A DNA stretch of 64,000 bases from Gemmatimonadota bacterium. Its GTDB lineage: Bacteria > Gemmatimonadota > Gemmatimonadetes > Longimicrobiales > Gaopeijiaceae. This document shows positions 6,151-6,333 of this stretch, piece by piece (position 1 is the first letter of the stretch; each line of letters starts with the position of its first letter). Below the pieces are notes generated by a model that saw nothing but the letters and a program-made list of their open reading frames with translations, had not been told where the DNA came from and did no database searches. The stretch is from contig JAUIEJ010000002.1 in NCBI GenBank assembly GCA_030428885.1, forward strand, positions 188,501-252,500. Direction: 5' to 3'. A program made the position numbers and the translations under genes.

Positions 6151-6187
6151 AAAAAAAGCCCGGCCCCCTCGAAGGAGAGGGCCGGGC
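6151..6187 (-). terminator. intrinsic terminator in the metY leader (attenuator)
   Basis: On the minus strand a 12-bp stem (GCCCGGCCCTCT paired with GGGGGCCGGGC plus an A, including a G-U pair) with a CCTTCG loop is followed directly by seven U. It lies 24 bases upstream of the metY start, so it can only act to stop transcription before the operon. The ascending arm contains CCTCTCC (6174-6180), which can also pair with an upstream GGAGAGG. Confidence 0.88.
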
Positions 6188-6269
6188 GGGGACCGGGCGC
6201 GATGCCCGGTGCGATCAGGCGGTGGTCATGGACCGATGCGCGCCTCCCGCGGCCTCTCCTCGGGGAGAG
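6174..6269 (-). promoter_or_regulatory. attenuation switch: alternative hairpins between leader ORF and terminator
   Basis: Four mutually exclusive segments can be read on the minus strand: 1 = CTCTCC (6269-6264), 2 = GGAGAGG (6259-6253), 3 = CCTCTCC (6180-6174) and 4 = the G-rich descending arm of the terminator. Segments 1:2 form a tight hairpin with a CCGA loop, 2:3 give a perfect 7-bp antiterminator, and 3:4 form the terminator. Segment 1 begins 5 bases after the last Cys codon of the leader ORF, so a ribosome stalled on the Met/Cys codons would cover it and free segment 2. A further small hairpin (ACCGGGC/GCCCGGT, 6210-6192) sits between 2 and 3. Confidence 0.72.
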
Positions 6270-6333
6270 TCCGGCACATGCACATGCACATCGACATGCC
6301 GTCGATGCAGGGAAGCAGCGTAGCGTCGCTCAT
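6226..6333 (-). CDS. Met/Cys-rich leader peptide of the metY operon
   Basis: An ATG at 6333 opens 35 codons ending in TGA at 6226. Residues 13-20 read MSMCMCMC: eight consecutive codons of which four are Met and three Cys. These are the two sulfur amino acids and match the products of the operon behind it. The run ends next to the hairpin segments described for the attenuator. An in-frame ATG at 6351 would add six residues. Neither start has a clear ribosome site, which is the main weakness. No homologue is recognised. The inferred role is to sense charged tRNA-Met and/or tRNA-Cys through ribosome stalling, not to act as a protein. Confidence 0.65.
   Translation of the reverse strand: MSDATLLPCIDGMSMCMCMCRTLPEERPREARIGP

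Follow-up and report, generated by a model that had tools for sequence, protein, structure and literature searches.

A candidate Met/Cys leader-peptide attenuator behind a SAM-II riboswitch in front of a Gemmatimonadota metY-lysC-metX-hom operon

Methionine genes are known to be controlled by riboswitches, T-boxes and repressors. Can a translated leader peptide serve this pathway as well? The question is raised by a metY-lysC-metX-hom operon, whose product pathway leads to the methionine precursor homocysteine, and by the short open reading frame (ORF) rich in Met and Cys codons that precedes it in the window, a 64,000-nucleotide stretch of a Gemmatimonadota genome. A first-pass annotation had read this ORF, together with the segments CTCTCC, GGAGAGG and CCTCTCC and a terminator with seven U, as a trp-style attenuator, unusual for genes mostly controlled by SAM riboswitches, T-boxes or MetJ/MetR. 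All of these elements, including the 35-codon ORF with MSMCMCMC, are present on the minus strand (Table 1). What the annotation did not recognize is the SAM-II riboswitch immediately upstream, which has a terminator of its own, so the leader peptide is there but does not replace a riboswitch. Our reading, in which we have good confidence, is that the leader would exert two-stage transcription control, by the SAM-II riboswitch and then by a ribosome-mediated attenuator.

Table 1. Features of the operon and its leader, in window coordinates
Feature	Coordinates	Strand	Basis or remark
hom, homoserine dehydrogenase, 5' end approximate	2134..3090	-	PF00742 and PF03447, NF004976
metX, homoserine O-acetyltransferase, 5' end approximate	3072..4040	-	TIGR01392
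lysC-like aspartokinase, catalytic domain only; own ATG overlaps metY stop	4028..4798	-	NCBIfam aspartate kinase models
metY, O-acetylhomoserine sulfhydrylase	4795..6138	-	PF01053 and TIGR01326
Second intrinsic terminator: 3:4 hairpin 6187-6158, U7 6157-6151	6151..6187	-	dG -29.3 kcal/mol; 3:4 covaries in the Gemmatimonadota alignment
Segment 3, CCCGCCCGGCCCTCTCC, including CCTCTCC 6180-6174	6174..6190	-	Antiterminator 3' strand and terminator 5' arm
Leader stop codon, between segments 2 and 3	6226..6228	-	Same place in 38/38 leaders
Segment 2, GGAGAGG 6259-6253, extendable to GGAGAGGCCGCGGG	6246..6259	-	Antiterminator 5' strand
Segment 1, CTCTCC	6264..6269	-	Pairing with segment 2 possible; comparative support absent
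Met/Cys codon run MSMCMCMC, predicted sensor	6274..6297	-	Sequence; kept in relatives with varying codons and residues
Leader ORF, 41 codons from ATG 6351 or 35 from ATG 6333	6226..6351	-	Sequence
First terminator-like hairpin and T6, putative SAM-II expression platform	6353..6385	-	Sequence CGCCCGG...CCGGGCTTTTTT
SAM-II (SAM_alpha) riboswitch aptamer	6373..6448	-	Rfam RF00521, 40.9 bits, gathering score 36
Candidate sigma-70-type promoter: TTGACA (6487-6482), 18-base spacer, TAGCGT (6463-6458)	6458..6487	-	Sequence

The likely start of metY is ATG 6126, which has GGAG (6136-6133) ahead of it and is preferred to ATG 6138. The closest named relatives of this MetY come mostly from Gemmatimonadota assemblies. 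The aspartokinase of the operon, about 257 codons long, apparently misses the C-terminal ACT regulatory domains, and may as such escape feedback inhibition.

Transcription from the candidate promoter would start just before the SAM-II aptamer, whose covariance-model score lies above the gathering score of the family. The terminator-like hairpin behind the aptamer occurs at the same position in the leaders of relatives, and SAM-II is also found upstream of metY in seven related genomes. Covariance-model searches of the window leader and of the leaders of relatives gave no matches to T-boxes or other Rfam families. Separately, seven metY upstream regions from a second Gemmatimonadota family share a strongly conserved RNA-like motif (GGCGG..GATTT..GGCCACTTGCT.CCGCC, a variable hairpin, then ACCAAAGAGCTAAAG.GCCG) with a terminator of its own. 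Despite its likeness to SAM-II with an inserted stem it matches no Rfam family, and is possibly an undescribed SAM-II-like riboswitch variant.

The leader ORF is open from both ATG codons to its stop, encodes the peptide MPLRFVMSDATLLPCIDGMSMCMCMCRTLPEERPREARIGP and ends in GMSMCMCMCRTLPEERPREARIGP before the stop codon. A pattern search of the 5.4-Mb genome for ATGTGYATGTGY returned two overlapping matches here and only one other place. No NCBIfam model matches these leader peptides. As the annotation had remarked, there is no Shine-Dalgarno sequence ahead of either ATG. In about 14 of the relatives that lack SAM-II, 8-10 bases separate the end of the -10 box from the leader ATG or GTG, a distance that fits leaderless transcripts, and the leader ORF appears to be leaderless in many relatives, including Acidobacteriota and Chloroflexota. 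A leaderless start is not expected in the window, since SAM-II precedes the leader ORF.

To follow the leader across genomes we used MetY relatives as an independent handle and then scanned the regions upstream of them; the sequences compared are mutually related and mostly from metagenome assemblies. Met/Cys runs of varied residues lie directly upstream of metY in at least four phyla, and the order of run, segment 2, stop and terminator recurs before metY in Gemmatimonadota, Acidobacteriota, Chloroflexota, Calditrichota and a Melioribacter MAG. Examples are MCMCMGMC, AMCMCCMC, LMCMCMMC and MMCSMCMC in Gemmatimonadota, MCMSMWMC and MSMSMPMC in MAGs labelled Acidobacteria, Thermoanaerobaculia or Holophagales, MCCLMCCMMC in Calditrichota and, as weaker runs, SMM.MPGRPR.AEDG in Chloroflexi. 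At least five Met/Cys residues within eight codons are found in 32 of the 136 metY upstream regions, versus 0.4% of dinucleotide shuffles and 1 of the 136 antisense strands. The Melioribacter MAG has two tandem Met/Cys leader ORFs before metY, each with its own terminator.

Nearly all relatives have an intrinsic terminator with a U-run between leader and metY, and the terminator's 5' arm doubles as partner in the antiterminator. In 38 leaders with a terminator hairpin of at least 10 kcal/mol located 57-110 bases behind the run, we examined the pairing of segment 2 with segment 3. Across 17 Gemmatimonadota leaders in a fixed alignment the 3:4 terminator covaries, and the 2:3 helix covaries no more than shuffles do, both of its strands being nearly invariant. 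We therefore used an alignment-free test, taking the best stem between the 60 bases past the run and the terminator 5' arm, for own versus permuted partners. Own pairs gave a mean of 23.96 versus 18.63 (SD 0.54) for permuted pairs, and none of 10,000 permutations was as good. By group, the counts were 0/10,000 in Gemmatimonadota and 13/10,000 in Acidobacteriota; for Chloroflexota alone, where the segments are all alike, the test has no power. Duplex energies compared with per-sequence shuffles are mostly non-significant singly in these GC-rich leaders, and become significant only when pooled and set own against other. The pairs that keep the complementarity are of unrelated sequence: GGAGAGG:CCTCTCC, TGCGGGAGG:CCTCCCGCA, CCGGCGCGGGG:CCCCGCGCCGG, GCGGCCCCG:CGGGGCCGC, ACCGGAAGGG:CCCTTCCGGT and GTGAAGGG:CCCTTCAC. 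The annotation had suggested a test of both pairings by covariation; it is seen for 3:4, and for 2:3 it is the own-versus-permuted comparison that speaks. The attenuator proposed there would have been refuted by homologues that kept the terminator and lost the run or the antiterminator pairing; the opposite was found, since run, 2:3 complementarity and terminator are all retained in homologous leaders.

The geometry is constrained too. Median spacing is 11 bases from run to segment 2, 25 from segment 2 to the stop and 34 from the stop to segment 3 (SD about 10). In the other two frames the position of the first stop varies far more, with an SD of about 58 versus about 10 in the leader frame. 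This indicates constraint, in these GC-rich leaders, on the frame and on the placement of a stop past segment 2 and ahead of segment 3. The annotation had placed the stop correctly, 3' of segment 2, and counted this as a weak point; the position proves to be conserved.

The part of the original proposal that gained no support is the switch between 1:2 plus 3:4 and 2:3. Segment 1 begins at the fifth base past the last Cys codon, and own 1:2 pairs are no better than permuted ones (1956/10,000). The 322-nucleotide leader folds more stably than 100 of 100 shuffles (z -4.3), and in the nascent RNA of the window 2:3 has a probability of 0.87 and 0.86 with and without masking of segment 1. In the nascent RNA past a ribosome stalled on the run, 2:3 exceeds a probability of 0.5 in 28 of the 38 leaders. 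The naked leader, with no ribosome on it, also favours 2:3, with a probability of 0.86 for the window and likewise for most relatives. Left without a ribosome, the device would therefore read through. Because 2:3 forms even then, the off state most likely needs a ribosome that passes through segment 2 and stops between segments 2 and 3. Ribosome passage through segment 2 is accordingly a likelier switch than a 1:2 hairpin.

A simpler account would have SAM-II alone regulate the operon, with a second terminator that is constitutive or coupled to the riboswitch and a Met/Cys ORF that is untranslated. The above-threshold match in the window agrees with this, as do nine Gemmatimonadota metY leaders that are SAM-II-like and lack a Met/Cys run, and the terminator downstream of SAM-II at Sinorhizobium meliloti metA is predicted to be unaffected by SAM binding (PMC9373788). 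However, the Met/Cys leader also occurs with no SAM-II match, in Acidobacteriota, Chloroflexota and several Gemmatimonadota. Its run, frame and stop position are constrained, and its codons vary with the downstream gene. We regard control by SAM-II alone as improbable.

That last point rests on sister leaders. A covariance model trained on Met/Cys leaders and searched over 395 Gemmatimonadota genomes gave matches in 76. In the window's own genome, a Leu-rich leader, LLLGLLTLPVLLLG, precedes leuA (G000:C11:268179-268305). It shares the layout with His-rich leaders, LHHVHRHH, which precede hisG in related genomes. Leaders of hom and metX carry Met without Cys (MMMMMMRM, MHMSMSTTT, MRMTMRMTMRMT), and Cys-rich leaders precede a nitrite/sulfite reductase gene (CCCCVCLC), a TauE-like gene and an OsmC-like gene. 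Cys is present in 19 of 19 metY leaders versus one of eight hom/metX leaders (Fisher 9e-6, with kinship ignored). This count leaves out one Met and Cys leader before a metX-like gene, in a group whose relatives have theirs upstream of metY. Of all observations, the match of codons to the downstream gene still speaks most strongly for a run that is read as codons, and the fit of codons to pathway points to sensing of charged tRNA.

The same search returned leaders whose downstream genes are less easily placed. Fourteen Cys-rich Met/Cys leaders (EHPDWFRPLFAELDRRG) precede a gene for a RimK-like ATP-grasp enzyme, which suggests an enzyme whose substrate or product contains Cys or Met. Two other Met/Cys-rich leaders stand before a PLP-dependent threonine-synthase-like enzyme, an odd position unless the enzyme has a role in sulfur metabolism or is itself tuned to the homoserine branch point.

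The ribosome might also be stalled by something other than uncharged tRNA, if the nascent Cys-rich peptide responded, while inside the exit tunnel, to a metal, a metabolite or the redox state. Cys-rich peptides do precede sulfur-related genes, such as those for the TauE-like exporter and the OsmC-like protein. Yet among relatives Met and Cys follow each other in no fixed order, the flanking residues are unconserved within Gemmatimonadota, and sister leaders that share the layout rely on Leu, on His or on Met alone; we give this alternative very little weight. Just as hard to sustain is an action of leader translation through translational coupling to metY or through mRNA stability instead of transcription termination: the leader stop lies 87 bases upstream of the annotated metY ORF, as coupling would allow, but metY has its own GGAG site, and in nearly all relatives there intervenes the intrinsic terminator whose 5' arm pairs in the antiterminator. 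Finally, a chance hexamer microsatellite, (ATGTGC)n, in a functionless ORF is refuted almost beyond doubt, in spite of the three ATGTGC units in the window run, since homologues swap these units for TCC, GGC, TGG, CTG, TGC-TGC and others, losing the nucleotide repeat while Met/Cys content and frame are kept, and since dense runs are so much rarer in shuffles.

The Met/Cys attenuator is thus real and conserved, in our assessment very probably ribosome-mediated, and it likely works behind the SAM-II riboswitch. The elements and their conservation, the complementarity of 2:3 and 3:4 and the agreement of sister-leader codons with pathway are observed; we infer translation, stalling, termination, the SAM response and the two-stage logic from sequence. 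In the first stage, high SAM would halt transcription at the terminator of the SAM-II riboswitch, as expected from the riboswitch family. In the second, a ribosome would translate the leader peptide of 35-41 codons with its Met/Cys run. Under a shortage of Met-tRNA or Cys-tRNA it would stall on the run and leave segment 2, 11-12 bases further on, free to pair with segment 3, so that no terminator forms and the operon is transcribed. With both tRNAs charged, it would cross segment 2 and reach the stop codon ahead of segment 3, leaving the 3:4 terminator to form. The operon would then be on only when low SAM coincides with a shortage of charged Met- or Cys-tRNA. Two inputs, SAM and the supply of charged Met and Cys tRNA, are thus probably consulted before it switches on.

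More broadly, we lean towards the view that one attenuator layout makes up a sulfur amino-acid regulon in Gemmatimonadota and neighbouring phyla. The codon mix would encode pathway position (Met alone for the homoserine branch, Cys alone for sulfite reduction, Met and Cys for the junction at metY), often behind SAM-II and gating on low SAM together with low charged Met/Cys-tRNA. In a pathway known for other types of control, several phyla here share a conserved Met/Cys attenuator of the terminator type. As the codon mix changes with the enzyme downstream, the charged tRNAs to which a pathway step 'listens' can be read from the sequence.

Compared with known systems, the leader resembles the trp/his-type attenuators (trpL, hisL, leuL) in its short ORF, which carries codons for the amino acid under control, its intrinsic terminator before the first gene and its competing antiterminator, which uses the terminator 5' arm; these are the parts by which a ribosome-mediated attenuator is recognized. 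It differs in combining Met with Cys codons and in a 1:2 hairpin without support. Unlike trpL, where the stop lies between segments 1 and 2, the stop here is between 2 and 3 in all 38 leaders, a variant geometry and not trpL-type proper.

The nearest leader-peptide precedent that we found for methionine genes is metL of Streptomyces lividans, a leaderless leader peptide, CMCRRMC, before metNIQ (PMC8079986). Like the window leader it mixes Met with Cys codons ahead of a methionine gene, and it is leaderless, as the Acidobacteriota and Chloroflexota relatives appear to be. In contrast to the operon described here, its operon encodes a transporter, the authors saw no clear Rho-independent terminator, and no SAM riboswitch is described with it (PMC8079986). 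Cys-codon upstream ORFs before sulfur or tRNA-synthetase genes are known from Actinobacteria, where Cys leader peptides precede cys operons and the mycobacterial ones lack intrinsic terminators (PMC1262725), and from the Rhodobacterales cysS motif uORFC-8-2, which ends in an intrinsic terminator (PMC8632094). Unlike the window leader, these carry Cys only, with no Met codons, and do not precede metY. Single parts thus have precedents; our searches of the open-licence literature turned up neither a Met/Cys attenuator of the terminator type before metY nor one in tandem with SAM-II.

For the riboswitch stage, S. meliloti metZ and metA have SAM-II aptamers and terminators before methionine genes, but no leader-peptide attenuator is predicted behind them (PMC9373788). 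Closest in logic are the SAM-I/T-box(Met) tandems before metX and metY, for which the predicted rule is likewise NOT SAM AND Met-tRNA shortage (PMC9481103). The genes are the same and so is the predicted logic, whereas here the two inputs would be read by a SAM-II riboswitch and a translated leader peptide.
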